Below are positions 44,777 through 61,951 of a DNA stretch of 64,000 bases, one piece after another (the first letter of the stretch is position 1; the number at the start of each line of letters is the position of its first letter). The notes beneath the pieces were generated by a model. It made no database searches, had not been told where the DNA came from, and saw only the letters and a program-made list of their open reading frames with translations. This DNA comes from Nitrosovibrio sp. Nv4. GTDB lineage: Bacteria; Pseudomonadota; Gammaproteobacteria; Burkholderiales; Nitrosomonadaceae. Position numbers and translations under genes: made by a program. The stretch covers positions 310,001 through 374,000 of the forward strand of contig NZ_OCMZ01000001.1 of the NCBI RefSeq assembly GCF_900215485.1, written 5' to 3'.

Positions 44777-45104
44777 CAGTTATCTCCCGCTCATTTATAA
44801 TTTATTCGTGCCATATGTACTGCTATACCGAAATCATATGCGCATCTTCGTGCCTATTCTCTTGAATAAACCTGTGTAAGGGAACTGTACCAAAGGCCGA
44901 TTTCCGTACTGCTTGTATCAGCATATCATACCGAGGAAGGGATGGCTCGGGGTTGGCTTCAATCCGCTCTGTAGAGGCCGGAAATCCTTTAATAGGAAAC
45001 AAAACGTAGTACGATGCGATGTATAATTTTTCCGGCCATGGATCAGTTCGGACAAACCCGCGTTCAATATTAATTACGATCGTCTAATGGGAAGGGAATT
45101 TTAT
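44777..45104. other. Divergent intergenic region tviB / prsT
   Basis: About 330 nt. A TATAAT hexamer at 45022-45027 on the plus strand could be the -10 box for prsT, but no matching -35 is seen at the right distance. Otherwise featureless. Confidence 0.4.
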
Positions 45105-47903
45105 ATGCTTAATCCAAGCAAGGCTGGCGCAACCGGGGCGTTATTGAGGGTTGTGATCTCAGTCGCATTAATCGGCGGTGGCCTGATGGGCTGCGGCAAT
45201 TCGAAAGATCCCCAGACCCTGATTTCGGACGCCAGACGGTACGAGGAAAAAGGAGACCACAAGGCCGCCATTATCCAGCTTAAGAACGCTTTGCAAAAAA
45301 ATCCTGACGATCCGGAGGCCCGTTATCTCCTGGGCGCCATCTATAACAAAACCGGTGATCTCCAATCCGCCGAAAAGGAGCTCCGTAAGGCCCTGAGCCT
45401 GGGGATGAGCCGCGCCAGGGTAATGCCTGATCTAGGTCAAACGTTGCTCAAGTTGGGTCAATATAAGCAGGTGCTGGATGAGACAGAGCAATTATCAGAA
45501 GGTAAAAGTTCCGCCGAAATTTCAACATTACGGGGACAGGCTTCGCTTGGATTGGATAAAGGCAAGGATGCCAAGGCCTTGTTCGAATTGGCACTCAACG
45601 ACAAGCCGGATTTTCCGGATGCATTAATCGGCCTGGCAAGGTATTCGCTCCTGGAAAAAGATGTGGAGACCGCGACGAGTCTGGCAGAGCAGGCGGTAAC
45701 CCGAAACCCGGAAAATGCGGACGCTTGGCTTTTCAAGGCTGACCTGCTACGTGTCCAAGGCAAGGCTGACGCAGCCCTTGCCGCTTATGACGAGGTTGTG
45801 AAGCTAAAACCAAAAAGCGCACCCGCCTTGATCAGCAAGGCTTTCATAGAAATCGGCACTGAAAAATTTGATGCCGCAAAGGCGGATATCGAGGCGGCAC
45901 GCAAGGTTGCGCCCACTAATGTAATGGTGTTCTATACCCAGGCACTACTCGATTTCACCCAGAACAACCAGGCTGCTGCATGGGATTCCCTGCAGCAGAT
46001 ACTAAGCAAATCACCGGACCATATGCCCAGCCTGCTACTCGCCGGAGCTGTGCAAGCCGCACTGGGATCGCCGCTGCATGCCGAGCAGCACCTGAAACGT
46101 TATCTGGAAAAGGACCCGAAAAATCTCTATGCACGCAAGCTGTTAGTTTCCGTCCTTCTGAAAAACCGCGAAACACAGCGTGCAATTGCAGTACTGAGCC
46201 CTGCACTCAAAGACAAGAACATAAAACAGGATCCTCAGCTATTCGCCCTGGCCGGTGAATCCTATATGCAGGCCAAGGATTTTGCCAAAGCAACGGAATA
46301 TTTTGACAAGGCCAGCGGCATTGTGCCGGAAAATGCAATGCTCCATACGGCATTGAGCATGAGCAAACTGGGACAAGGCGATAACATCGATGCGGTGGCC
46401 GCGCTGGAAAAGGCAATAAAGGTTGATCCCAAATCATCTCAGGCAGGCATGCTGCTGATCATGACCCACATTCGTCTAAAGGAATTTGACAAGGCCATTG
46501 CAGCAGCCGGACGTCTTGAAAAGGAACAGCCCGATAATCCCCTTATTCAGAATCTGAAAGGTGGTGCATATCTGGGCAAGAAAGACTTAGCCCGTGCACG
46601 GGTCAGTTTTGAGAAAGCGCTTTCTCTCCAGCCCGATTATTTTCCGGCGATCGCGAATCTCGCACAACTTGACCTGCAGGAAAAAAAACCAGACGAGGCC
46701 AAAAAACGCTTCCTCGCCATTCTGGACAAAGACAAGAAGAATACTCAGGCCATGACCGCGTTAGCCAGTCTTGCGCTCAATCAGGGGCAGAACAAGGAAG
46801 CCACGGCCTGGCTTGAACGAGCGAGCAAGGAGAATCCTGACATACTCCAGCCTTCTCTGCTTTTAGTGGCTCATTATCTCCGTACAGGAGAAAAGCAGAA
46901 ATCTCTTACCCTTGCCCAGCAGCTGGGGAAAGCGAATCCCGACAATCCGGATATTCTGAATTTGATGGCACAGGCGCAATTTGCCAACGGTGACAAGGAT
47001 GGCGCACTGAAGAGCTATACTGAACTAGCCGCCGCGCGGCCAGATTCCGCTCTTGCCCAATATCGCATCGCTTCTGTTCAAATGGCAATGGAAAACATCC
47101 CTGCCGCATCTGACGCGCTGAAAAAAGCACTGACTATAAAACCGGAATACCCGGATGCCCAACTGGCACAAGCTACGCTCGAGGCGCGCAAAGGGAATCA
47201 CGAACAAGCAATCGCCATTGCCAGGCAGCTTCAAAAACAACAGGACAAGTCGCCCGTGGGTTACATTCTCGAGGGCGATATGCTGATAGCACAAAAAAAA
47301 CCGGCTCTTGCCGCAAAGGCGTATGAGCAGGCATTCGCTGTCAGAAGGAGCGGGCCATCAATAATGAAATTGCATGCGTCGCTCAGCCACGTGGGAAAAA
47401 GCAGGGAAGCAACCCCTCGCCTGCTCCAATGGCTGAAGGAACACCCTGATGACTCATCTACCCGCATGTACCTGGCCGAGTTCTATCTCACGGATCGGCA
47501 GACCAAATCGGCCATAGAACAATATCAGACTATCCTGCGGCAACATCCTAAATACGCGCCCGCCCTGAACAATCTGGCTACCGCTTACCAGCATGAAAAA
47601 GATCCCCTTGCCCTTGAATATGCAGAAAAGGCTTATGAGCTTGCTCCGGACAGCCCTGCGATATTAGATACTCTGGGATGGATATTGGTAGCACAAGGCA
47701 ATACCACGCGCGGTTTGCCGCTTCTGAAGAAAGCTGCGTCCCTGGCGCCGCAGGCGGCAGAAATTCGCTACCACCTCGCATCTGGACTGGCTAAATCAGG
47801 TAACAAGCCTGAGGCCCGTAAAGAACTGGAACAATTGCTGGGTACCGGAAAGAATTTTTCCAGTATTGATGAGGCTAGAGCATTACTGAAACAAGTGCAA
47901 TAA
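45105..47903 (+). CDS. prsT: XrtA/PEP-CTERM system TPR-repeat lipoprotein PrsT
   Basis: 932-residue lipoprotein made almost entirely of TPR units. The signal peptide ends in the lipobox GGLMGC with Cys30 as the lipidated residue. About 20 helical TPR pairs follow (EEKGDHKAAIIQLKNALQKN is the first; the last is near APQAAEIRYHLASGLAKSGN). Length and layout match PrsT of exosortase A loci, thought to help export or assemble the exopolysaccharide at the envelope. The start at ATG 45105 has AAGGGAA 7 nt upstream; a longer frame starts at 45087. Confidence 0.93.
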   Translation: MLNPSKAGATGALLRVVISVALIGGGLMGCGNSKDPQTLISDARRYEEKGDHKAAIIQLKNALQKNPDDPEARYLLGAIYNKTGDLQSAEKELRKALSLGMSRARVMPDLGQTLLKLGQYKQVLDETEQLSEGKSSAEISTLRGQASLGLDKGKDAKALFELALNDKPDFPDALIGLARYSLLEKDVETATSLAEQAVTRNPENADAWLFKADLLRVQGKADAALAAYDEVVKLKPKSAPALISKAFIEIGTEKFDAAKADIEAARKVAPTNVMVFYTQALLDFTQNNQAAAWDSLQQILSKSPDHMPSLLLAGAVQAALGSPLHAEQHLKRYLEKDPKNLYARKLLVSVLLKNRETQRAIAVLSPALKDKNIKQDPQLFALAGESYMQAKDFAKATEYFDKASGIVPENAMLHTALSMSKLGQGDNIDAVAALEKAIKVDPKSSQAGMLLIMTHIRLKEFDKAIAAAGRLEKEQPDNPLIQNLKGGAYLGKKDLARARVSFEKALSLQPDYFPAIANLAQLDLQEKKPDEAKKRFLAILDKDKKNTQAMTALASLALNQGQNKEATAWLERASKENPDILQPSLLLVAHYLRTGEKQKSLTLAQQLGKANPDNPDILNLMAQAQFANGDKDGALKSYTELAAARPDSALAQYRIASVQMAMENIPAASDALKKALTIKPEYPDAQLAQATLEARKGNHEQAIAIARQLQKQQDKSPVGYILEGDMLIAQKKPALAAKAYEQAFAVRRSGPSIMKLHASLSHVGKSREATPRLLQWLKEHPDDSSTRMYLAEFYLTDRQTKSAIEQYQTILRQHPKYAPALNNLATAYQHEKDPLALEYAEKAYELAPDSPAILDTLGWILVAQGNTTRGLPLLKKAASLAPQAAEIRYHLASGLAKSGNKPEARKELEQLLGTGKNFSSIDEARALLKQVQ

Positions 47904-48232
47904 ACTGGAAAACAGAATAACTTGAGAAAACATTTAGTGGGTCGGGCAGCAGAATTGGATGACAACCGGAACAACCCGATAAAATCAGTCAGCTAGAACT
48001 GCAAAGATGCTTCTGCACGGCCGATACCGAGGCTGGACGGTCGTTGTTTAATCCTCTTCTGGCGCTTTCACCATCCCGCAAGTTTATGCTCTCCCGGCCC
48101 TGCCTCTCATGCCCTCCGTCTCATGCCCTCCCATTCCATCCGCTTGGAGAATCAACGCGAGGCACCGCCATTGGTGAAAAGGCCCGGTTCCAGACTCGTT
48201 GACTGCCTGCCCTCAACAAGAGCAGGCTTTTC
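47904..48232. other. Intergenic region between convergent prsT and the desaturase gene
   Basis: About 330 nt. It contains a short direct repeat (TCTCATGCCCTCC twice near 48106-48132). No hairpin with a T-tract and no gene were found. Confidence 0.4.
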
Positions 48233-53712: not shown

Positions 53713-53789
53713 AGGCGCGTAGCTCAGCTGGTTAGAGCACCACCTTGACATGGTGGGGGTCGTTGGTTCGAGTCCAATCGCGCCTACCA
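53713..53789 (+). tRNA. tRNA-Val(GAC)
   Basis: 77-nt tRNA with encoded CCA. The acceptor stem AGGCGCG pairs with CGCGCCT (53779-53785), followed by discriminator A and CCA (53787-53789). The anticodon stem CCACC/GGTGG encloses the loop TTGACAT, giving anticodon GAC at 53747-53749 (valine codons GUC/GUU). The T-arm GGTTCGAGTCC is normal. Confidence 0.97.
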
Positions 53790-54153
53790 GGACATCTGCC
53801 AGTAAATCGCGGCTAATCAGCTGCTTCGGTATCTTTTTACCAATCTCTCCTCAGGTTATGCTTGAGTGGCGAAACCTGTTCCGAAAATGATCGCCACTAT
53901 CCCTCGCCCGTAATTTTTACGAAGGTTAAACACGATAGCATTTCGTGAGTCGCGCAATCCCGGTTTATTTTGCAGCAGGTGAGGAATAAAACAAGCGATA
54001 GTCTGTAGTCTGTGTGCGTCGGATGGGTACGAGAGCACCGCAAGCCGGATTAAAACTAGTGGGACTACGTCGAATTCTCTGAAAGAATAACTTACCACTT
54101 ACACTAATGGTCACAGCGTATGACTACTGGTTGGTGGAATGGAAGAGATTGAC
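53790..54153. other. Intergenic region after tRNA-Val
   Basis: About 360 nt. An 8-bp inverted repeat (AGTGGCGA 53865-53872, TCGCCACT 53891-53898) lies 76 nt after the tRNA, with an 18-nt loop. No gene, attachment-site duplication of the tRNA 3' end or integrase was seen. Confidence 0.4.
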
Positions 54154-54217: not shown

Positions 54218-54790
54218 TCAGGAAGGCTTGCGCATACTCCGGCGACGCACTACCGCACCCATCAACCCAAGGCCAGCCAGAAGCATGGCATAGGTTTCGG
54301 GTTCAGGAACCGCTGCGGCGATCGAGCCAGCGTAAATACCGCCCAGCGAGCCACTTGTCACTCCAGTGATATTGAGATAATGCCCGCCAGTAAGAGGTCC
54401 ATCCCATGCCAGACTTAGATTATCCTGAGTATTCCCGGCTGAAGGAAGTACGACCGATTGCAGAACCTGGTCGTCAGCGGTTCCTTGCATGTTATCAACT
54501 CCATAAGAAACCAACGACATCGTGGCGAGTACCGTCGCCAATGTGCCTGCTTCCCCCAGATCAAGCGGGAAATTGACGACATTGTATCCTGAGCTTATAT
54601 TGGGTTCCGCAAGGGTGAAGGTGAATATATCACTAAAGCTTGTTTGGGCTTCCAATACGGAACCGGTGAACGTCGTGGGTGTACTGGTAGATATCGTGCC
54701 CAAGTCTGTTACTGTATCAGCACTTGCGCTGGCGCTGGCGCCCGCCAAGACCACTATAGCAACAGCTCCTTTCAAAGATGACTTAATCAT
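54218..54790 (-). CDS. PEP-CTERM protein (FxDxF type)
   Basis: 190-residue secreted protein. The signal peptide is at the N-terminus (GAVAIVVLAGASASASA). A small beta-rich body contains SFSDIFTFTL, the FxDxF-like signature of a PEP-CTERM subfamily, and the tail is VPEPETYAMLLAGLGLMGA followed by RRR. An AAGGAGGT ribosome-binding site 5 nt before the ATG at 54790 fixes the start. Expected to be cut by exosortase and displayed at the envelope. Unrelated in its body to the two paralogues at 56.7 and 58.2 kb, but its upstream side carries the same kind of manC-tail remnant. Confidence 0.92.
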   Translation of the reverse strand: MIKSSLKGAVAIVVLAGASASASADTVTDLGTISTSTPTTFTGSVLEAQTSFSDIFTFTLAEPNISSGYNVVNFPLDLGEAGTLATVLATMSLVSYGVDNMQGTADDQVLQSVVLPSAGNTQDNLSLAWDGPLTGGHYLNITGVTSGSLGGIYAGSIAAAVPEPETYAMLLAGLGLMGAVVRRRSMRKPS

Positions 54791-54998
54791 TTTTACCTCC
54801 TTTATTTTGAAACAATTGTGCATAAGGCTATATGCGACTTAAGTTCCTCATATATGCAGGATAGATGTGCTTCTGTTAAACAGCTATTAATAACATCGGG
54901 TCAGGAAACGCAAAACCCGACGTCTAAAGATTACACTTGCTAGGGGAATGATCAATAGACCGATAGGACTATCAATAATTTCAGTAACTTTCTTTCCA

Positions 54999-55210
54999 TC
55001 CGTAATCATCCTCAAACCGAATAATGTCTTCGCTCAATATTGTCGCGATTAGGTCTGGATTATCTCACGCGGGGCCTAAGTGGGGTTCTGCAACCGTTGC
55101 CGCGATCTGGCGGAAGACGTGGGTTATTTTCCAATTCCAGATTACTCGCATCGCCTGGCCTGTGCCGTGCAAGTACCAGGATCCAGTGTTCCGGTATGAG
55201 GGTGACATAT
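54999..55210 (-). pseudogene. Decayed copy of the manC 3' end (copy A)
   Basis: About 210 nt that align with the last part of manC (59360-59580). At the 3' end TAATCATCCTCAAACCGAAT matches TAAACATCGTCAAAGCGAAC, and CCAGATTACTCGCATCG matches CCAGATAACTCGCGTCC. On the minus strand one frame still reads EHWILVLARHRPGDAS then NLELENNP, against EHWIVVRGTAQVTRGDAS then YLVSENES in ManC. Stop codons and indels show it is not functional. Confidence 0.72.
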
Positions 55211-55220
55211 TTTGAGCGAC

Positions 55221-55300
55221 AGGGCGACGAGGCGTTAATCATAGTTTTCTAAACAGTCAACGAATCGCTCGATTTTTATTTGGCAAAAGCTGAATCCCAA
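55221..55300. repeat. Array flank element, copy A
   Basis: An approximately 80-nt element whose core reads AATCGCTCGATTTTTATTTG. It recurs at 56572-56659 and 58070-58150 with substitutions. In the other two copies it sits just downstream of the 3' end of a PEP-CTERM gene. Here no PEP-CTERM gene follows; a methyltransferase gene does. Confidence 0.75.
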
Positions 55301-55458
55301 GGTTTGTAATGGCGGAAGCATTCCAGCGGATCAGATGTGCGCCTCCCTGCTCACCGCAGGCCTTGGCATTGGATCAGAGAGGTAACCTTGTATCTGGCCA
55401 CCACGTTTCAGCAGCAAGACAGGCGCTACTGGCCTCAACTCAAGCCTTTAGTGACTCA

Positions 55459-56109
55459 CTACTTATGCCACGTAACAGTAAACGTCATTGGCAGGCCGAG
55501 GAACCGATTACGAACCAGCTGATAATTGCGGATTCCGGCTGACTTCAACAGCGATCGCAACTCGCGCTCTGACAATAGGAATATATAATCAGTCGCCCAC
55601 CCTTTACCGATGAGGCGCAGGAATGCATCGAATGCACGTCGGGTCAGCACAATGTGCAGCAGGGGGATGCTCGTATGGGTCTCGATCGGAAACAAGCGGT
55701 TCGGCGTAGTCAAATAACCGCGCTTCCCGACTCGAAGCATTTCTTCAAGAAAGCGCTGCTGGTCAGGCTGAGGCCCCACATGTTCAATTACCGCGTTAGA
55801 ATAGCTAATATCAAATGAATCGTTCTCAAAACACAGGTTGCGCCCGTCGGACGAGAATGTCCGCACTGCCGGATAGCGCTTGTTAAATTCAGTAAAATCT
55901 TCGCTAACCCCGACTACGCTGATCTTCTCCGGGTACGGGTACCGCTTCTCCAAGTAATTGTCCACGTCAGTATATTCGGTGGTGTTGACGCCAATATCAA
56001 GGATTGTTTCATCAGGCTGAGGCCTCATCAGTGCCAAAAATTGATGCCATTTCTGCTCTCGACTTTTTCCCGATACGGCATTAGCAAAGTGACGCAATGC
56101 AGATTTCAT
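55459..56109 (-). CDS. Class I SAM-dependent methyltransferase
   Basis: 216-residue methyltransferase with motif I ETILDIGVNTTEYTDVDNYL, GVSEDFTEFNKRYPAV and FDISYSNAVIEHVG (motif II). LTTPNRLFPIETHTSIPLLH is typical of type 11 enzymes acting on lipids or sugars. The start at ATG 56109 is set by GGGAGAG 5 nt upstream; the frame is open to 56196. It occupies the position in the repeat array where a PEP-CTERM gene would be expected. Confidence 0.88.
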   Translation of the reverse strand: MKSALRHFANAVSGKSREQKWHQFLALMRPQPDETILDIGVNTTEYTDVDNYLEKRYPYPEKISVVGVSEDFTEFNKRYPAVRTFSSDGRNLCFENDSFDISYSNAVIEHVGPQPDQQRFLEEMLRVGKRGYLTTPNRLFPIETHTSIPLLHIVLTRRAFDAFLRLIGKGWATDYIFLLSERELRSLLKSAGIRNYQLVRNRFLGLPMTFTVTWHK

Positions 56110-56494
56110 TCGTCTCTCCCAAAATATTGCATCCCTCCGCAGCCTCTCCCAAAGTCCACATGCTTCTGGCTGAGAGGGCGAGATACCGCTGTGCACGAGA
56201 CTAACCCATTACTCGAAACGATTTATTTTTGTAACAACTTTCCACGGTATTTTATTAACCACGATCTCGTCGGAGCGGGCCAACCCTGGGTATACCTGGT
56301 TGTTGCCCGCTGCCTCGGCGAACCCATGAGCTCCCTGGCTTCGCCTTTTAGTTGTTCTTCCAGTTTCCCGATAAGCCCAAAAGATCTGAAGCAGGGTGCG
56401 CCGACCCGTTCCCGCTGTCAGCACAAATAACGTAGCAGGGTTCTACCGTTGAAAAACAAGCGGATAATGTTGAAGCGATCTAGGGGGCTCTGCG
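56110..56494. other. Intergenic region upstream of the methyltransferase
   Basis: About 385 nt. No gene with a ribosome-binding site. This is the part of the array with no recognisable similarity to the other units. Confidence 0.4.
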
Positions 56495-56565
56495 GTCGCG
56501 CATCCCTGCGCCTGATCTATCCGGAAACACCACAATTCCGCATTCCATCCTGGTGAGCGCCTGCA
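56495..56565 (-). pseudogene. Short, strongly decayed manC-tail remnant (copy B)
   Basis: About 70 nt resembling copy C and the manC segment at about 59520-59585 (ATCCCTGCGCCTGATCTATC here; ATCCCTTCGCCTGACCTATG in copy C). It precedes an array flank element, as in the other units. Similarity is only partial, so this copy is less certain. Confidence 0.42.
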
Positions 56566-56571
56566 GCGATC

Positions 56572-56659
56572 AGGCGCCGACATCTTAATAATGATTTTTT
56601 GTCGGGGTCAATGAATAGTTCGATTTTTTATTTAGGGGAAGCTGAAATCCTGACGTTTC
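56572..56659. repeat. Array flank element, copy B
   Basis: Second copy of the flank element (GTCGGGGTCAATGAATAG, then TTCGATTTTTTATTTAGG and GGAAGCTGAAATCC). It lies immediately downstream of the PEP-CTERM gene at 56692 and matches copy C closely. Confidence 0.82.
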
Positions 56660-56675
56660 TCTCTTTTCTCAAATC

Positions 56676-57170
56676 GAGATTATCAACAGTGCTAGCGCAT
56701 GGCACGCCCAGTTAAATCCTTTCGCCGGAGCCGCGCCGCAAGAACACCTAACCCCAACGCTAGCAGAATGAACTGTTCTGGCTCAGGTACAGAACTGACC
56801 AACCGGATGTCGGTCCCCTGGTCGTCCAGCAATAACCAGAATGGCGTCGTATGTTCATCGCCCCTCAGGCGAGCTGTGAATCGCAAGGTATCGCCTTCAT
56901 CCAACCGCACGTCCGAAATGCCCAAAGGCTGCGTAATTGTCGAAAACGACGATAACGCGCCACCTTCTGTGGGATTTGCAAGTGTCGCCGAGTAAAGAAG
57001 TTCGAAGGAACCTTCAGACGCGTCCAGCCGGGCAACAGCTATATCGACGAGGCCCATAGGTGAATTATCCGTATAGTGCCCCTCCCATGTAGCCTTCAGA
57101 GATCCGCCAACATCTACGATCGCTCCGTCTCCTACAGGGTTGCGCCATTCAACCACAGGCATATACTCAG
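56676..57170. repeat. 495-bp direct repeat, first copy
   Basis: Identical by base-by-base reading to 58164-58658 (offset 1488). It covers the 3' half of the PEP-CTERM gene at 56692 and a few bases beyond the stop. The flanking DNA on both sides has diverged, so the identity boundary is sharp, as expected for recent gene conversion. Confidence 0.93.
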
Positions 57171-57582
57171 AAGACATGGTGTGCGCGGTTAGATCATGCA
57201 CCATTGCCGACTTACCGATGGGTGGATTGGTGCCAACATTATCGGCACCCGGTCCATTATATCCTCGAGCCCATAGTCCTTTACCAGAACCACCCCACCA
57301 CTCGTCATCCCATACCATTGGCGATAGTTGCTGCGCGTACCATGGATTTGACGACCCCAGTTCCCCGCCGGATGTATATCCATAAAACCATACCGGATTG
57401 CCGTTCTTATCCGCGGCCGGATTTCCAGCCATCGAGCCTGGCACTATACCCGGTGCCCAGTCTTCGCTGCGATCCCAGCGAAAACCGGGCGCGTAGTCGT
57501 TGGCCAGCGATGTGATTGGCACTGTGGAACCGATCAAGGCCACTGCCATGACAAGCGGGGGGCATATGCGTAATATATTCAT
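56692..57582 (-). CDS. PEP-CTERM protein, tandem paralogue 1
   Basis: 296-residue secreted protein of unknown function. The signal peptide is near ICPPLVMAVALIGSTVPITS, cleaved about residue 27. A conserved N-terminal part follows (DYAPGFRWDRSEDWAPG, KNGNPVWFYGYT, SSNPWYAQQ). The C-terminal half is identical in its paralogue at 58180 (EYMPVVEWRNPVGDGAIVDV onwards, with a GLVDIAVARLDASEG segment). The tail VPEPEQFILLALGLGVLAA plus RLRRK is a PEP-CTERM anchor. GGAGAAC precedes the ATG at 57582. The body may be a carbohydrate-binding beta-sandwich, but no family was recognised. Confidence 0.9.
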   Translation of the reverse strand: MNILRICPPLVMAVALIGSTVPITSLANDYAPGFRWDRSEDWAPGIVPGSMAGNPAADKNGNPVWFYGYTSGGELGSSNPWYAQQLSPMVWDDEWWGGSGKGLWARGYNGPGADNVGTNPPIGKSAMVHDLTAHTMSSEYMPVVEWRNPVGDGAIVDVGGSLKATWEGHYTDNSPMGLVDIAVARLDASEGSFELLYSATLANPTEGGALSSFSTITQPLGISDVRLDEGDTLRFTARLRGDEHTTPFWLLLDDQGTDIRLVSSVPEPEQFILLALGLGVLAARLRRKDLTGRAMR

Positions 57583-57863
57583 ATTGTTCTCCGACACAAA
57601 TGTTGGCAAAGATGACGGAATCTAAAAAATAGAAAACCTGCAGGGCGCATTAACTGACGTAAATCACTCCCCCCAGGCTCCTCTGCAATTGCTTGATCAA
57701 GACACAACGACCCACTATCCCACTATCAATGCTTACTTATCAACCACACCAGTTCTGAAATCTTAAAAACCTACCGTGCAGATTACGCCGAATATTGAGT
57801 AGAGGTCAATAGGCCCTTCTGGCTAGTCAAAAAAGATCAGCTTCAATAAAAATACCTAAAGGG
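57583..57863. other. Leader and upstream flank of paralogue 1
   Basis: About 280 nt, partly matching the leader of paralogue 2: TTGGCAAAGATGACGGAATC here, TTGGCAAAGGTGACGGAATT there. A short motif GTCAATAGGCCC at about 57808 matches GTCAATAGACCG at about 59268 and ATCAATAGACCG at about 54949. Probably contains the promoter. Confidence 0.5.
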
Positions 57864-57892
57864 TGAGGTGGGATGTTAACTGCCCCACCTCA
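57864..57892. other. Hairpin upstream of paralogue 1
   Basis: TGAGGTGGG (57864-57872) and CCCACCTCA (57884-57892) form a perfect 9-bp stem with an 11-nt loop. On the minus strand it is followed by an imperfect T-rich stretch (TTTAGGTATTTTTATTG), so it could terminate read-through from manC or paralogue 2 before paralogue 1. Confidence 0.45.
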
Positions 57893-58060
57893 GCTATAGA
57901 GAAGGGCTCATCGAACTTCGATCATCTCAGCAGTGACAACAAGGACTCTACAGCCGTGCCGAATGCCTGGCAAAGATGGCTCATTCTCGAATGCCAGCTA
58001 ACTCATATCATCCCTTCGCCTGACCTATGCCGTATGTACTACATTCGACATTCCATCGTG
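57888..58060 (-). pseudogene. Decayed copy of the manC 3' end (copy C)
   Basis: About 170 nt aligning with manC 59400-59580: GAACTTCGATCATCTCAG matches GGACTTCGATCATCTCAA, and the following sequence keeps the order. The minus-strand translation reads LAFENEPSLP, then GIRHGC, then TAEMIEVR, against LVSENESTFIPLG, ARHRLVNPGC and LEMIEVQ in ManC. In-frame stops show it is dead. It separates the two paralogues. Confidence 0.8.
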
Positions 58061-58069
58061 ATACGATTG

Positions 58070-58150
58070 GGCGGCGACGCTTGATTATGATTTTTTGTCG
58101 TGATCAATGAATAGCTCGATTTTTATTTAGCGGAAGCTGAAACCCAGACG
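58070..58150. repeat. Array flank element, copy C
   Basis: Third copy of the element (GTGATCAATGAATAGCTCGA, then TTTTTATTTAGCGGAAGCTG). It lies just downstream of the PEP-CTERM paralogue 2 gene. Confidence 0.82.
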
Positions 58151-58163
58151 TTTTTTTAAAATT

Positions 58164-58658
58164 GAGATTATCAACAGTGCTAGCGCATGGCACGCCCAGT
58201 TAAATCCTTTCGCCGGAGCCGCGCCGCAAGAACACCTAACCCCAACGCTAGCAGAATGAACTGTTCTGGCTCAGGTACAGAACTGACCAACCGGATGTCG
58301 GTCCCCTGGTCGTCCAGCAATAACCAGAATGGCGTCGTATGTTCATCGCCCCTCAGGCGAGCTGTGAATCGCAAGGTATCGCCTTCATCCAACCGCACGT
58401 CCGAAATGCCCAAAGGCTGCGTAATTGTCGAAAACGACGATAACGCGCCACCTTCTGTGGGATTTGCAAGTGTCGCCGAGTAAAGAAGTTCGAAGGAACC
58501 TTCAGACGCGTCCAGCCGGGCAACAGCTATATCGACGAGGCCCATAGGTGAATTATCCGTATAGTGCCCCTCCCATGTAGCCTTCAGAGATCCGCCAACA
58601 TCTACGATCGCTCCGTCTCCTACAGGGTTGCGCCATTCAACCACAGGCATATACTCAG
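58164..58658. repeat. 495-bp direct repeat, second copy
   Basis: Same sequence as 56676-57170 with no difference found by eye. It covers the 3' half of the PEP-CTERM gene at 58180. Just past 58658 the two genes differ at many positions. Confidence 0.93.
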
Positions 58659-59079
58659 CAGATTGTATATATTCAGTCAAAGAATGAGCCAGTGACCATT
58701 TACCGATTAGCGGATCAGTATTTATGATATGTGTATCTGGACCATTATATACTCGAGCCCAAACTCCCTGACCTCCCCCCACATTTATCTGATCATTCCA
58801 AACCAGTGGCGAAAATTGCTGTGCGTACCATGGATTTGACGACCCCAGTTCTCCACCGGTTGTATATCCATAAAACCATACCGGATTGCCATTCTTATCC
58901 GCGGCCGGATTTCCGGCGGTCGATCCTGGCACCGTACCCGGCACCCAGTCTTCACTGCGATCCCAACGAAAACCGGGCGCATAATCGCTGGCCTGAGATG
59001 CCGTTGGCATCGTGGAGCCGATCAAGGCCGCTATCGCCACGATCATGACAAGCTGGGGGCATGTTCGTAATTTATTCAT
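58180..59079 (-). CDS. PEP-CTERM protein, tandem paralogue 2
   Basis: 299-residue secreted protein, paralogue of the gene at 56692. The signal peptide is MIVAIAALIGSTMPTASQAS. The first 100 residues are similar to paralogue 1, and residues about 115-140 are the most divergent (HIINTDPLIGKWSLAHSLTE here). From EYMPVVEWRNPVGDG to the end, including the VPEPEQFILLALGLGV anchor, the two are identical. GGAGAAC precedes the ATG. It lies 280 nt downstream of the manC stop codon on the same strand. Confidence 0.9.
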   Translation of the reverse strand: MNKLRTCPQLVMIVAIAALIGSTMPTASQASDYAPGFRWDRSEDWVPGTVPGSTAGNPAADKNGNPVWFYGYTTGGELGSSNPWYAQQFSPLVWNDQINVGGGQGVWARVYNGPDTHIINTDPLIGKWSLAHSLTEYIQSAEYMPVVEWRNPVGDGAIVDVGGSLKATWEGHYTDNSPMGLVDIAVARLDASEGSFELLYSATLANPTEGGALSSFSTITQPLGISDVRLDEGDTLRFTARLRGDEHTTPFWLLLDDQGTDIRLVSSVPEPEQFILLALGLGVLAARLRRKDLTGRAMR

Positions 59080-59359
59080 ATTGTTCTCCGACGCGAAAGG
59101 TTGGCAAAGGTGACGGAATTGAAAAATTGAAAACCTGGCCAGGGTAGACGACCAGCAAGACGCTCTGCAATTGTTTTATCGCAAAATAGGGCAGATAGTT
59201 AACAATGCAAATTCCCGATGATCTTGGATAACCCCTTACAGAATGCTCGGAATATAGAGCAAGAGTCAATAGACCGTGTGGACTAGGGAAAAGAAATGAC
59301 TCAAAAAATAACGGAGGGTCATCAGATGATGCCAGTGGATCGACGGTGCCGCGAATTCT

Positions 59360-60799
59360 TTATCGCCCATAAACATCGTCAAAGCGAACAATATCATCTT
59401 CACCCAGATAGGAGCCCGATTGGACTTCGATCATCTCAAGAGGTACACAACCGGGGTTTACCAACCGGTGTCGCGCACCCAACGGAATAAAGGTCGACTC
59501 ATTTTCGGATACCAGATAACTCGCGTCCCCCCGCGTGACCTGAGCCGTGCCTCGAACGACAATCCAGTGCTCCGCCCGGTGATGGTGCATTTGCAACGAC
59601 AGGGCGGCGCCAGGCTTGACCACGATGCGCTTGACCTGAAAACGCTCACCTGAATCGACACCATCGTACCATCCCCATGGGCGGAATACCTTGCGGTGCA
59701 ACTCGCCTTCCGGCCTGCCCTCACGCTTGAGATGGTCTACGATATTCTTTACCTGTTGAGTCTTGCTCATATGAGCGACGAGAATGGCATCCGGTGTTTC
59801 GACCACCACCATATCTTCTATTCCCACGCATGCTATCAGCCGATGCTCCGCCATGACCAGCATGTTGTGGCAGTTATGCAATAACACATCGCCTTGCGCT
59901 ACATTTCCCTGATGGTCCTTGGGTAGCACCTGCCACAATGAATCCCAGGCGCCGACGTCGGACCAACCAGCTGATAATGGCATCATTACTCCAGCCGGAA
60001 GCGTGTTTTCGCCAACGGCAATACGTTCCATTACCGCATAGTCGATCGAGTCGCTGGGGCATTGCAAGAACGCCTCTTTACCAACACGTACAAAATCTCC
60101 GTCCGTTGAGCCCAAGTCCCATGCCTCATGGCAAGCTGCCAGAATATCGTTCCTACATACTCCCATAGCCGAGAGCCATACTGAGGCGCGCAGCATGAAC
60201 AGGCCGCTGTTCCAGAAGTAAGTGCCTGCATCGAGATAAGCTTGCGCCGTAACGAGATCAGGTTTTTCCACAAAGCGCGCGATGCGGCTGGCACCCGCTG
60301 TACCGATCGGCTTACCCGCCTGGATGTAGCCGTAGCCCGTCTCGGGTGAGTCAGGCGTAATGCCGAAGGTTACGACTGCGCCTTCAGCCGCAAGTATGGC
60401 GCCTTCACGTACTGCCGCCTGAAAACGTGATTTATCCAGAATTACATGATCAGCTGGCATTACCAGCATGACGGGATCTGCCCCATCACGCATCGCAGCC
60501 AGAGCGGCCAGTGTTAGCGCGGGAGCCGTATTACGTCCGACGGGTTCGAGCAGTATCGTCCCCGCTGCTTCCATCAACCGGAGCTGTTCAGCGATGACAA
60601 AACGGTATTCCTCATTGCAAACGACAAGTGGTGCTTCAACTCGCATATCGGCCAACCCCTCCATGCGTCTAAGCGTGGCCTGCAATAACGACTCATCCCC
60701 GATAAGCGGCAAAAGCTGCTTTGGGTATTTCTCGCGAGAAAGGGGCCACAGGCGTGTGCCGGAGCCTCCTGAGAGCACCACAGGGATTAATGATTGCAT
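59360..60799 (-). CDS. manC: Mannose-1-phosphate guanylyltransferase / mannose-6-phosphate isomerase
   Basis: 479-residue bifunctional enzyme supplying GDP-mannose. The N-terminal nucleotidyltransferase has VVLSGGSGTRLWPLSREKYP and KQLLPL; PADHVILD follows. The C-terminal type II isomerase cupin has FRPWGWYDGVDSGERFQVKR, LSLQMHHHRAEHWIVV and NESTFIPLGARHRL. The start at ATG 60799 matches the family; the frame extends to 60898. Its 3' end is the source of the decayed fragments at 54999, 56495 and 57888. Confidence 0.95.
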   Translation of the reverse strand: MQSLIPVVLSGGSGTRLWPLSREKYPKQLLPLIGDESLLQATLRRMEGLADMRVEAPLVVCNEEYRFVIAEQLRLMEAAGTILLEPVGRNTAPALTLAALAAMRDGADPVMLVMPADHVILDKSRFQAAVREGAILAAEGAVVTFGITPDSPETGYGYIQAGKPIGTAGASRIARFVEKPDLVTAQAYLDAGTYFWNSGLFMLRASVWLSAMGVCRNDILAACHEAWDLGSTDGDFVRVGKEAFLQCPSDSIDYAVMERIAVGENTLPAGVMMPLSAGWSDVGAWDSLWQVLPKDHQGNVAQGDVLLHNCHNMLVMAEHRLIACVGIEDMVVVETPDAILVAHMSKTQQVKNIVDHLKREGRPEGELHRKVFRPWGWYDGVDSGERFQVKRIVVKPGAALSLQMHHHRAEHWIVVRGTAQVTRGDASYLVSENESTFIPLGARHRLVNPGCVPLEMIEVQSGSYLGEDDIVRFDDVYGR

Positions 60800-60916
60800 G
60801 GAAAGTTCACCGATGGGTGTGATGCATTTTCTATTTGTAACAGAAGCGGTCCCGCTGCCATGCCAGGACCGGAAACCGGAAAAGAGGAACGTTGGCACTG
60901 CTTCATGTTTTAAACC

Positions 60917-61951
60917 TCAACCTCCATATCCTTCAGGATTGGCGCTTTGCCAGCGCCATGTGTCCGCACACATCTCTCTCAGGCCACGCTCTGCCCGCCA
61001 TTTCAGTAAATCATAGGCCAATCGCGGATCGGCATAGCAGGAGGCTATGTCGCCGGGACGACGGGGAGCAATCTTGTAGGGCACTCTCCGGCCGCTTGCC
61101 TGCTCAAAAGCCTGTACCATATCAAGAACGCTATAGCCCGTGCCAGTTCCCAGATTTACTGTCAGACACCCGGTCAGCTCCGGTGTGCCCGAATCGGCCG
61201 ACGCGTCCAGTGCTTCCAAAGCTTTAAGGTGGCCTAACGCCAGATCGACCACATGAATGTAATCCCTTACGCCCGTTCCATCGGGCGTTGGATAATCGTT
61301 GCCCCACACGTTGAGAATTTCCCGTCTGCCTACCGCTACCTGGGCTATGAAAGGCATCAGATTATCGGGGATACCGCGTGGGTCTTCTCCAATCAAACCG
61401 CTAGTATGGGCTCCAACGGGGTTGAAGTAACGCAGAATACAGAGACGCCAGGAAGAATCACTGTGGTAGAGGTCGCGCAAAATCTCCTCAACGACCAGTT
61501 TGCTCTGTCCATAGGGGTTTGTGGCGGCGAGCGGATGATCCTCGGTCAGTGGCAACCACTTCGGCTCACCGTAGACAGTAGCAGAGGAACTGAATACCAG
61601 TTTTTTTACGCCACATTCACCCATCGCCTCAAGCAAACGCAGGGTGCCGACGACATTGTTGTCGTAATACGCCAAAGGCTGCTTGACCGATTCGCCTACG
61701 GCTTTGAGGCCGGCGAAATGGATTACCGCGCTCGCACCACTCTCATGCAGAGCTGCTGTCAGTGCGGCACGATCCCGGCAATCACCCCGTACCAGGTAGA
61801 GCTTTTTCCCCGTGATACGCTCCACCCTTGCCAATGCCTCGGGATGACTATTGCAAAAATTGTCGAATACGGTGACATCAAGACCGGCGTTAAGCAACTC
61901 GACGCAAGTATGCGAACCAATATAACCAGCACCACCGGTGACAAGAATCAT
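60917..61951 (-). CDS. galE: UDP-glucose 4-epimerase
   Basis: 344-residue SDR epimerase interconverting UDP-glucose and UDP-galactose. [19 protein letters not shown] is the NAD loop, KLVFSSSATVYGEP holds the catalytic Ser/Thr, and NPYGQSKLVVEEIL has the Tyr and Lys. ARRPGDIASCYADP is typical of the C-terminal part. It lies 118 nt upstream of manC on the same strand. Confidence 0.96.
   Translation of the reverse strand: MILVTGGAGYIGSHTCVELLNAGLDVTVFDNFCNSHPEALARVERITGKKLYLVRGDCRDRAALTAALHESGASAVIHFAGLKAVGESVKQPLAYYDNNVVGTLRLLEAMGECGVKKLVFSSSATVYGEPKWLPLTEDHPLAATNPYGQSKLVVEEILRDLYHSDSSWRLCILRYFNPVGAHTSGLIGEDPRGIPDNLMPFIAQVAVGRREILNVWGNDYPTPDGTGVRDYIHVVDLALGHLKALEALDASADSGTPELTGCLTVNLGTGTGYSVLDMVQAFEQASGRRVPYKIAPRRPGDIASCYADPRLAYDLLKWRAERGLREMCADTWRWQSANPEGYGG

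Follow-up and report, generated by a model that had tools for sequence, protein, structure and literature searches.

The interval between manC and tRNA-Val(gac) in the window, a 64,000-nt stretch of the Nitrosovibrio sp. Nv4 genome (G000), is probably a growth point for exosortase cargo, with units entering at the manC 3' end and displacing the older ends downstream; a probability of roughly 0.7 is attached to this reading. The interval runs in the order tRNA-Val, pepA, remnant A, flank, methyltransferase, remnant mid, flank, pep2, remnant B, flank, pep1 and manC, and was compared with the same locus in 23 genomes of the genus. The features, in window positions, are as follows.

59360–60793, minus strand: manC, bifunctional mannose-1-phosphate guanylyltransferase / mannose-6-phosphate isomerase, the intact anchor gene (TIGR01479, GMP_PMI, 677.7 bits)
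59266–59285, minus strand: leader element 1, upstream of pep1 (motif TAG-N-C-N5-GG-N-CTATTGA)
58180–59079, minus strand: pep1, PEP-CTERM protein (PF07589)
58080–58153, minus strand: flank element downstream of pep1, with a manC piece attached at its far end (direct-repeat families D3, D4 and D8)
57898–58091, minus strand: manC remnant B, corresponding to manC positions -267 to -46 relative to the stop codon (alignments and profile)
57806–57825, minus strand: leader element 2, upstream of pep2 (motif)
56692–57582, minus strand: pep2, paralogue of pep1 (PF07589; 495-nt identical 3' tract)
56584–56658, minus strand: flank element, second copy (direct repeats)
56499–56595, minus strand: manC remnant mid, the most decayed (homology to remnant B)
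55424–56208, minus strand: duplicated segment with methyltransferase gene, ORF 55459–56196 (98.5% identity to a distant copy)
55233–55306, minus strand: flank element, third copy (direct repeats; the A-B alignment spans flank and remnant)
54986–55241, minus strand: manC remnant A, apparently the displaced native manC 3' end (alignments, profile, G014 comparison)
54952–54971, minus strand: leader element 3, upstream of pepA (motif)
54218–54790, minus strand: pepA, native FxDxF-type PEP-CTERM gene (NF038126, 80.9 bits)
53713–53789, plus strand: tRNA-Val(gac), which bounds the variable interval at its far end

Coordinates, motifs and repeats bear out the order of flank, PEP-CTERM gene, leader and manC tail that the first-pass annotation had proposed for this interval. 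Its description of each unit as a PEP-CTERM gene with a flank holds in part only, since the unit behind remnant mid contains a methyltransferase where a third PEP-CTERM gene would stand, and a flank element was not found beyond pepA in G000 (score 23, null maximum 26). The distant copy of the methyltransferase segment lies 13.8 kb away, and the 288 nt and 118 nt flanking the gene matched none of six targets tested. manC has a single match within the genome, which also contains two EpsH-family (exosortase) matches, and the PEP-CTERM motif scores above the Pfam cut-off in pep1, pep2 and pepA alike. In pep1 and pep2 the 495 identical nt adjoin a window of 63% identity, whereas the similarity of this pair to pepA is confined to the sorting signal; pepA itself matches the pepA gene of G014 at 79%. 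The predicted fold of pep1 has a mean pLDDT of 40, and PADLOC gave no match for pep1, pep2 or the methyltransferase.

Each remnant was aligned locally to manC plus leader and compared with 300 dinucleotide shuffles. Scores of 145 for remnant A (null maximum 38) and 113 for remnant B (null maximum 40) were obtained, the latter in an alignment that extends into the leader; remnant B scored 85 when the target was limited to the final 450 nt of manC (null maximum 37, 15 shuffles). Remnant mid was not significant directly (34, null maximum 45) and is the only one of the three proposed manC tails to align no better than shuffled sequence. It did match remnant B (157, null maximum 43) and remnant A (65, null maximum 40), and remnants A and B matched each other (122, null maximum 38; 200 shuffles in each case). 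When the intact manC tails of all 23 genomes were built into a profile, the search picked up remnant A (E 1e-27) and remnant B (E 3.4e-12) but not remnant mid, the best match in reversed sequence having an E of 2. Remnants A and B are manC 3' ends, and remnant mid is a homologue of remnant B across a common junction. The EHWILV and GDAS motifs reported earlier for remnant A are both present, in the minus-strand ORF 55060–55242. The frame of this remnant is interrupted by stops; the manC pieces carry indels and are unequal in length and in state. Candidate manC-like stretches in G029, G018 and G024 were rejected: their scores of 40–48 no more than equalled or slightly exceeded a null drawn from only 15 shuffles, and the profile gave no confirmation.

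All three remnants start at about one manC site (59622–59626), behind the same flank element of ∼75 nt, and the mid-B and A-B alignments cross both flank and manC piece, such that the chimeric junction is common to A, mid and B. This common junction, together with the paralogy of pep1 and pep2, means that tandem duplication fits remnants B and mid. In the last pep copy of G020 the flank runs past TCAA, the exact point at which the copy-1 flank switches to the manC piece, into other sequence, and manC itself has TCAA at the junction site. The junction may perhaps have arisen as an illegitimate join from this 4-nt microhomology. A putative block common to the regions behind both G004 pepA genes was discarded (31, null maximum 35).

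The native layout can be seen in 11 of the 23 genus genomes, where a leader element of ∼20 nt begins within 28 nt of manC and a pepA-type PEP-CTERM gene comes next; an element of this type occurs between manC and tRNA-Val in 22 of the 23. In uninserted genomes the leader begins only 10–28 nt past the manC stop, so that any unit retaining its leader has to start within manC, which would explain why units carry a piece of that gene. Nineteen leaders outside the native place were examined for a preceding manC piece, with 200 shuffles each. Six have one (0 of 200 shuffles reach the score), two each in G000 and G002 and one each in G004 and G020, and ten have no significant piece in front (13 to 188 of 200). 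The remaining three, all in G001, are preceded by marginal manC-like pieces (0 to 5 of 200) and were left out of the positives. For the stretch before pepA in G020, 13 or 121 of 200 shuffles reach the score against manC, depending on stretch length. The leader element is presumably regulatory. A sigma-54/PrsR leader of the type described in 2006 was considered and rejected, the three G000 leaders having neither the TTTACA signal nor a convincing sigma-54 site (best 8 of 11) (Haft 2006, PMC1569441).

Displacement is indicated by two before/after pairs among the relatives, for which block alignments are given as identity counts without a shuffle null. Remnant A, its leader and pepA align as one block with the intact manC end, leader and pepA of G014 (754/998; tail 163/238, leader 151/190, gene 440/570). 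By contrast, alignment of the G000 working end with G014 stays within manC (216/264) and takes in neither leader nor gene. Likewise, remnant 1 of G002 with its leader and pepA1 forms one block with the intact manC end, leader and pepA1 of G004 (631/804), and the alignment of the G002 working end to G004 ends within manC (49/61). In both pairs, then, a displaced old 3' end of the anchor gene is orthologous to a relative's intact end. The 100-nt leader 3 of G000 is nearest to the native leader of G014 (78/94), and leader 1 of G002 to leader 1 of G004. The alignment of remnant B to G014 also extends into the leader (187/279 overall, leader 63/97), as that of a native-end copy would. A tree of remnant A with intact manC ends leaves its origin unsettled (AU 0.45 for its own lineage, 0.16 for G014), so the case for displacement rests on the orthology of leader and gene. 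Since the remnant A block is orthologous to the G014 native end and the working end aligns with it within manC only, remnant A appears by sequence comparison to have been displaced rather than copied, as the native manC end moved aside by a unit with the unrelated pep1 and a substitute manC end. A deletion between manC and a remnant could also produce the uninserted layout, and the direction of change is therefore read from the 11 of 23 genomes that have this layout. The comparison with relatives that the first-pass annotation had proposed thus altered its explanation, adding displacement to duplication.

Strong matches to the pep1 family were found in three of 101 genomes (G000, G020 and G002), at this locus only; searches for a donor locus outside those three genomes, and for pep1 in the plasmid collection, found none. 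Monophyly of the three carriers is rejected (AU p 0.00013, in a test in which G002 fills 19% of the rpoB columns), which indicates that pep1 has moved between lineages. In a tree of 29 pepA-type genes, array members often group with other species: G020 pepA joins G003/G007/G008/G009, and the second genes of G001/G016/G022 join G015/G019. Exceptions to such grouping are the two G018 genes and the paralogues pep1/pep2. Between G002 and G000 the pep1 leaders show no match beyond the shuffle null (18 of 300 reach the score), nor was a flank element found behind G002 pep1 (13 of 300); that tail, leader and gene arrived together as a single block is accordingly only putative. Recent transfer, suggested by a raised identity of the G000 and G020 manC 3' ends, was rejected; background identity is ∼95–97%, and it is the manC 5' half (86–91%) that is unusual.

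The explanation offered initially was tandem duplication alone, whereby a unit from the manC 3' end to a PEP-CTERM gene was copied repeatedly in this lineage, the copies diverging and the manC pieces rotting. The single junction common to the three remnants and the paralogy of pep1/pep2, and of the G020 copies, speak for it, as does G004, where the intact manC end, leader 1 and pepA1 align through to remnant, leader 2 and pepA2 (624/865, score 465; relic part 107/131) and the remnant is nearest to G004's own manC (108/138; grouping 91/68, not starred). However, the array genes are not all mutual paralogues, and since pep1 and pep2 resemble pepA at the sorting signal only, duplication alone cannot have built the array. 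The methyltransferase unit, the missing flank beyond pepA, the orthology of the remnant A block to an intact native end and the dispersal of pep1 carriers over more than one clade all tell against it, and the three G000 leaders differ among themselves about as much as they differ from those of other species. Tandem duplication is thus contradicted as the sole mechanism, and unlikely to be the whole story, while remaining the likely origin of remnants B and mid.

Islands that integrate in the 3' ends of genes leave a rebuilt gene end and a displaced old end. An integrase-driven island or cassette inserted site-specifically into the manC 3' end, with the manC ends as attachment-site repeats, would match this anatomy, and tRNA-Val lies at the opposite edge; yet the manC break points vary (about -267 in G000 and G020, -144 in G004, about -56 to -65 in G002), and none of seven interval ORFs run through Pfam (four from the window, three from relatives) matches an integrase or transposase, making this origin scarcely credible. 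It is also highly improbable that the manC pieces are retained as leader RNA or as a regulatory spacer of the PEP-CTERM genes. Where found, they do lie directly upstream of leader elements, but between G000 and G020 the sequence running from remnant B as far as leader 2 has 97.5% identity, similar to the leaders (96.3–96.4%) and below the manC tail (99.3%). The unequal length and state of the remnants also argue against retention, and Rfam gave only the tRNA and one sub-gathering match adjoining it between 53600 and 60900.

Entry with displacement, followed by duplication, would proceed by homology-facilitated illegitimate recombination. Incoming DNA would be anchored by homology within manC and carry a PEP-CTERM gene and leader together with a replacement manC end; the far end of this DNA would be joined illegitimately inside the recipient's manC tail. 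manC would remain intact, and the old end, with its own leader and PEP-CTERM gene, would be pushed downstream to decay. Once two manC tails were present, unequal crossing-over could duplicate units, giving pep2 from pep1 and remnants B and mid, and gene conversion may then homogenise the copies. The array presumably also has a selective reason. A bolder proposal, put forward tentatively and with the odds against it, is that surface-protein cassettes of this genus have a permanent docking site in the manC 3' end, one that needs no integrase, where each arrival rebuilds manC and older cargo queues toward tRNA-Val; leftover tails would serve as recombination arms that swap, delete or homogenise cassettes, so that the variable pep1-type window is reshuffled like a surface-variation system.

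The closest analogues would appear to be T6SS, Rhs and CDI loci, whose arrays are of the sequential-displacement kind; at manC the cargo is of the exosortase type and the anchor gene unrelated. For the Vibrio cholerae T6SS effector-immunity arrays, a conserved upstream stretch is the proposed anchor, with illegitimate joining at the far end of the incoming module. Older genes move back, as does a 3' gene end in one case; alleles from the same genome do not group together, and integrase evidence is absent (PMC5361080). The manC locus resembles these arrays in its proposed anchored entry, displaced older genes, cross-lineage grouping and the lack of an integrase among the seven interval ORFs run. 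It differs in that its cargo is PEP-CTERM surface proteins with no toxin or immunity gene, Pfam and NCBIfam having found only PEP-CTERM proteins and the methyltransferase, and in that the anchor is an unrelated sugar-nucleotide gene whose product is unchanged, the displaced piece being a homologous end of that anchor (PMC5361080). Orphan CdiA-CT/CdiI modules, for which an Rhs parallel is drawn, are described as arising by stepwise displacement by new insertions and in some cases by tandem duplication, the same mixture as at manC; there, however, the anchor is the toxin gene itself and orphans can keep coding value, whereas at manC the pieces are broken by indels and, in remnant A, by stops (PMC6336857). 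PEP-CTERM genes were described in 2006, with N. multiformis among the genomes, as turning over fast, with lineage-specific expansion and mostly in single-gene operons with long leaders; the manC locus shares the turnover and expansion, and adds displaced ends of a flanking gene, a feature absent from that account as consulted (Haft 2006, PMC1569441).

Displacement arrays are known from toxin-immunity loci, where retained immunity explains the persistence of old genes. That sorted surface proteins behind an unrelated anchor show this anatomy too suggests that the process may be a general by-product of one-sided recombination beside a conserved gene. Since the remnants supply a relative order of arrivals, the turnover of exosortase cargo, described as very fast in 2006, would be readable at one locus across the genus. 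New surface-protein genes would thus be added right behind manC in this ammonia-oxidising bacterium and some of its relatives, and the stretch partly records the changes in their surface-protein set.

Downstream of manC, the array reads on the minus strand as manC, leader 1, pep1, flank, manC remnant B, leader 2, pep2 and a second flank, followed by remnant 'mid', a methyltransferase, the third flank, remnant A, leader 3 and pepA, and then tRNA-Val. Here, pep1 and pep2 are paralogous PEP-CTERM genes, pepA is a native gene of the FxDxF type, and the flank is an element of ~75 nt joined to each manC piece.

59360-60793, minus strand: manC

The layout proposed in the first-pass annotation was recovered, except that the unit behind 'mid' holds a methyltransferase and no PEP-CTERM gene. 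The host genome (G000; 3.27 Mb in 3 contigs, the window being G000:C3:310001-374000) has two exosortase-family matches, and 41 of its 46 listed PEP-CTERM matches exceed the Pfam cut-off, compared with 0 in 14 control genomes. Judging from the names of the relatives that carry pep1, the organism is presumably an ammonia oxidiser. Separately, an Rfam HPnc0260 match (53751-53885, minus strand; E 0.006, yet under the gathering score at 45.9 vs 59 bits) overlaps tRNA-Val on the opposite strand.

The identity of the remnants as manC 3' ends was examined by alignment against dinucleotide shuffles. Against manC plus leader (300 shuffles each), remnant A scored 145 (shuffle maximum 38) and remnant B 113 (maximum 40), the latter alignment extending into the leader; when only the manC tail was used, B scored 85, a value reached by 0/200 shuffles. 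The claim held for A and B, but not for 'mid' taken alone, which at 34 fell below its shuffle maximum of 45 and is recognisable by its match to B (157; maximum 43 of 200 shuffles), the manC part of the two being a 52-nt repeat at 71% (repeat family D7). Remnants A and B also match each other (122; maximum 38 of 200 shuffles). A profile of the intact manC tails of 23 genus genomes (G000 and 22 relatives), with the same genomes' intact ends included and the remnants left out, was run on 29 downstream stretches, 23 from the genus and 6 from other genera. It matched A (E 1e-27), a stretch in G004 (1.3e-15), B (3.4e-12), one in G020 (5e-9) and one in G002 (1.3e-9, plus a second at 0.044), whereas no other match was better than E 0.23, and reversed sequence gave E 2.

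Comparison of gene order between species showed that at least one PEP-CTERM gene lies behind manC in 22/22 relatives, with tRNA-Val, an rsu-like gene and rmlB next in 21/22, the contig of G009 ending before them; the labels rsu-like, rmlB, galE and 'polysaccharide cluster' come from reading the proteins by eye. By ORF scan and protein search, 14/23 genomes have one PEP-CTERM gene at the locus and 7/23 have between two and four that share one orientation, while in G005 and G018 the second gene is inverted; the genes of G018 were missed by the motif scan and recovered by protein search. In G018 the opposite strand of this interval encodes a DUF3466 protein of 421 aa whose PEP-CTERM signal is below threshold (L095 5794-7059). 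In G009 a second, partial ManC-like stretch (L090, G009:C12:70599-70958; 56% identity) lies about 19 kb from manC and adjoins galE-like matches.

With as many as 4 mismatches tolerated in its 19 letters, the leader element, CTAGTCC-N4-GGTCTATTGACC, was found in 22/23 genus genomes, G012 being the one in which the same search did not find it; shuffled sequence gave a mean of 0 to 0.02 per genome. In 11/23 the element starts 10-28 nt past the manC stop. In the G000 genome an abbreviated form matches exactly at 4 sites, 3 of them at this locus, and at 8 with one mismatch vs 5 in the reversed control. The element is unlike the leader of sigma-54 type that has been described for PEP-CTERM genes (PMC1569441). 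The stretch before each of 19 leaders outside the native place directly behind the manC stop (12 genomes, 200 shuffles each) held a clear manC piece in 6 cases (0/200 shuffles; two in G000, two in G002, one each in G004 and G020), a marginal one in 3, all in G001 (0 to 5 of 200), and none in 10, where 13 to 188 of 200 shuffles reached the score (one each in G005, G011, G015, G018, G021 and G020, the last being its pepA leader, and two each in G016 and G022). The manC pieces therefore mark part of the additions, not every one. In G001 three successive leaders stand each behind a short, marginal manC-like piece with no gene between (L086 2030-2520); these are possibly emptied units.

That the pieces arose by tandem duplication of a PEP-CTERM gene with the manC 3' end, as had been proposed, was weighed against displacement of native ends in two before/after pairs, for which block alignments are raw counts without shuffle control. 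In the first (DISPLACEMENT), G014, placed beside G000 and G020 in the rpoB tree (87/96, not starred), has the order manC, leader (from 16 nt after the stop), pepA. Remnant A, leader 3 and pepA of G000 align with this intact end as one block (754/998: tail 163/238, leader 151/190, gene 440/570), whereas from the working manC end, leader 1 and pep1 the manC tail alone aligns (216/264), and from remnant B and leader 2 only the tail (124/182) and part of the leader (63/97), the gene being unaligned. In the second pair, G004 reads manC, leader 1, pepA1, remnant, leader 2, pepA2, and G002 reads manC, new leader, pep1, remnant 1, leader 1, pepA1, remnant 2, leader 2, pepA2. Remnant 1, leader and pepA1 of G002 form a single aligned block with the intact end of G004 (631/804), while alignment of the working G002 end stops inside manC (49/61); remnant 1 reads DAYGRK, as does the G004 manC end, and the working G002 manC ends DVYGR. 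On rpoB, G002 belongs to a 7-member group with strong support (99/98) and with G000 outside; its pairing with G004 there is weak (81/32; G002 fills only 19% of columns), and the two pair by both pepA genes and both leaders. Remnant A and G002 remnant 1 are thus probably native ends displaced by arrivals at the manC end, the direction being argued from distribution because the uninserted state would be restored exactly if manC recombined with a remnant. The tree of remnant A itself singles out no origin.

Duplication does fit B and 'mid'. All three remnants have the same flank and about the same manC start, and therefore one junction was copied; of the G020 flanks, the one after copy 1 turns into a manC piece at TCAA, which manC also has there, and the one after the final pep copy continues beyond TCAA into unrelated sequence. 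For G004 pepA1 and pepA2, duplication or a related arrival fit equally well. The 3' halves of pep2 and pep1 share 495 identical nt (56676-57170 and 58164-58658, respectively) adjoining a window (residues 91-145) in which identity falls to 63%, a contrast that, at sequence level, points to recent gene conversion. The pep1 5' end is that of G020 copy 1 (1.00), and its variable window is closest to copy 2a (0.92). The methyltransferase segment (55424-56208) is a 785-nt copy, 98.5% identical, of G000:C3:379212-379994, 13.8 kb away, with the first ~40 nt diverging far more than the remainder; in G020 (98 kb compared) the gene is at the distant site only. The segment was copied into the array from that site, the PEP-CTERM gene of this unit being lost or never present. 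Elsewhere, the manC 5' half (about 60000-61000) is just 86-91% identical to G020 against a background of 95-97%, a sign of recombination in one or other lineage, and the stretch at about 45000-48000 is largely or wholly unmatched in the aligned part of G020.

A search of 101 genomes with pep1 gave any match in 12 and strong matches in 3 (G000, G020 and G002), all at this locus, the other 9 being at E 1.5e-5 or worse. A pattern-limited scan of a genome collection described as covering 84,980 species, which may omit records very near the window, returned G020 (Nitrosovibrio sp. Nv6) and G002 (Nitrosospira MAG 40_S54) alone. Constraining the three carriers together on rpoB cost 55.6 log units (AU p 0.00013); they are not one clade, which speaks for horizontal arrival of pep1. 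Comparison of the carriers gave no demonstration that tail, leader and pep1 arrived as a single block. The pepA-type genes cross species too: G020 pepA clusters with G003/G007/G008/G009 (100/99), as do the second genes of G001/G016/G022 with G015/G019 (100/99), and the closest relative of G000 pepA is that of G014 (79%).

Among the papers listed on PEP-CTERM/exosortase, manC, Nitrosospira and Nitrosovibrio, judged by their listings, none gives an account of this locus; one source mentions that lake Nitrosospira lack PEP-CTERM motifs (PMC9239080). The array is best read, from sequence comparison, as the product of two processes: new units arriving at the end of manC would push native ends downstream (remnant A and, in G002, remnant 1), and duplication of units by way of the manC tails would generate B and 'mid'. 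The manC pieces would travel with the units because the leader sits immediately behind the manC stop. A comparable mixture of origins is described for cdi orphans (PMC6336857), and T6SS arrays provide the entry model to which the manC locus is likened (PMC5361080).
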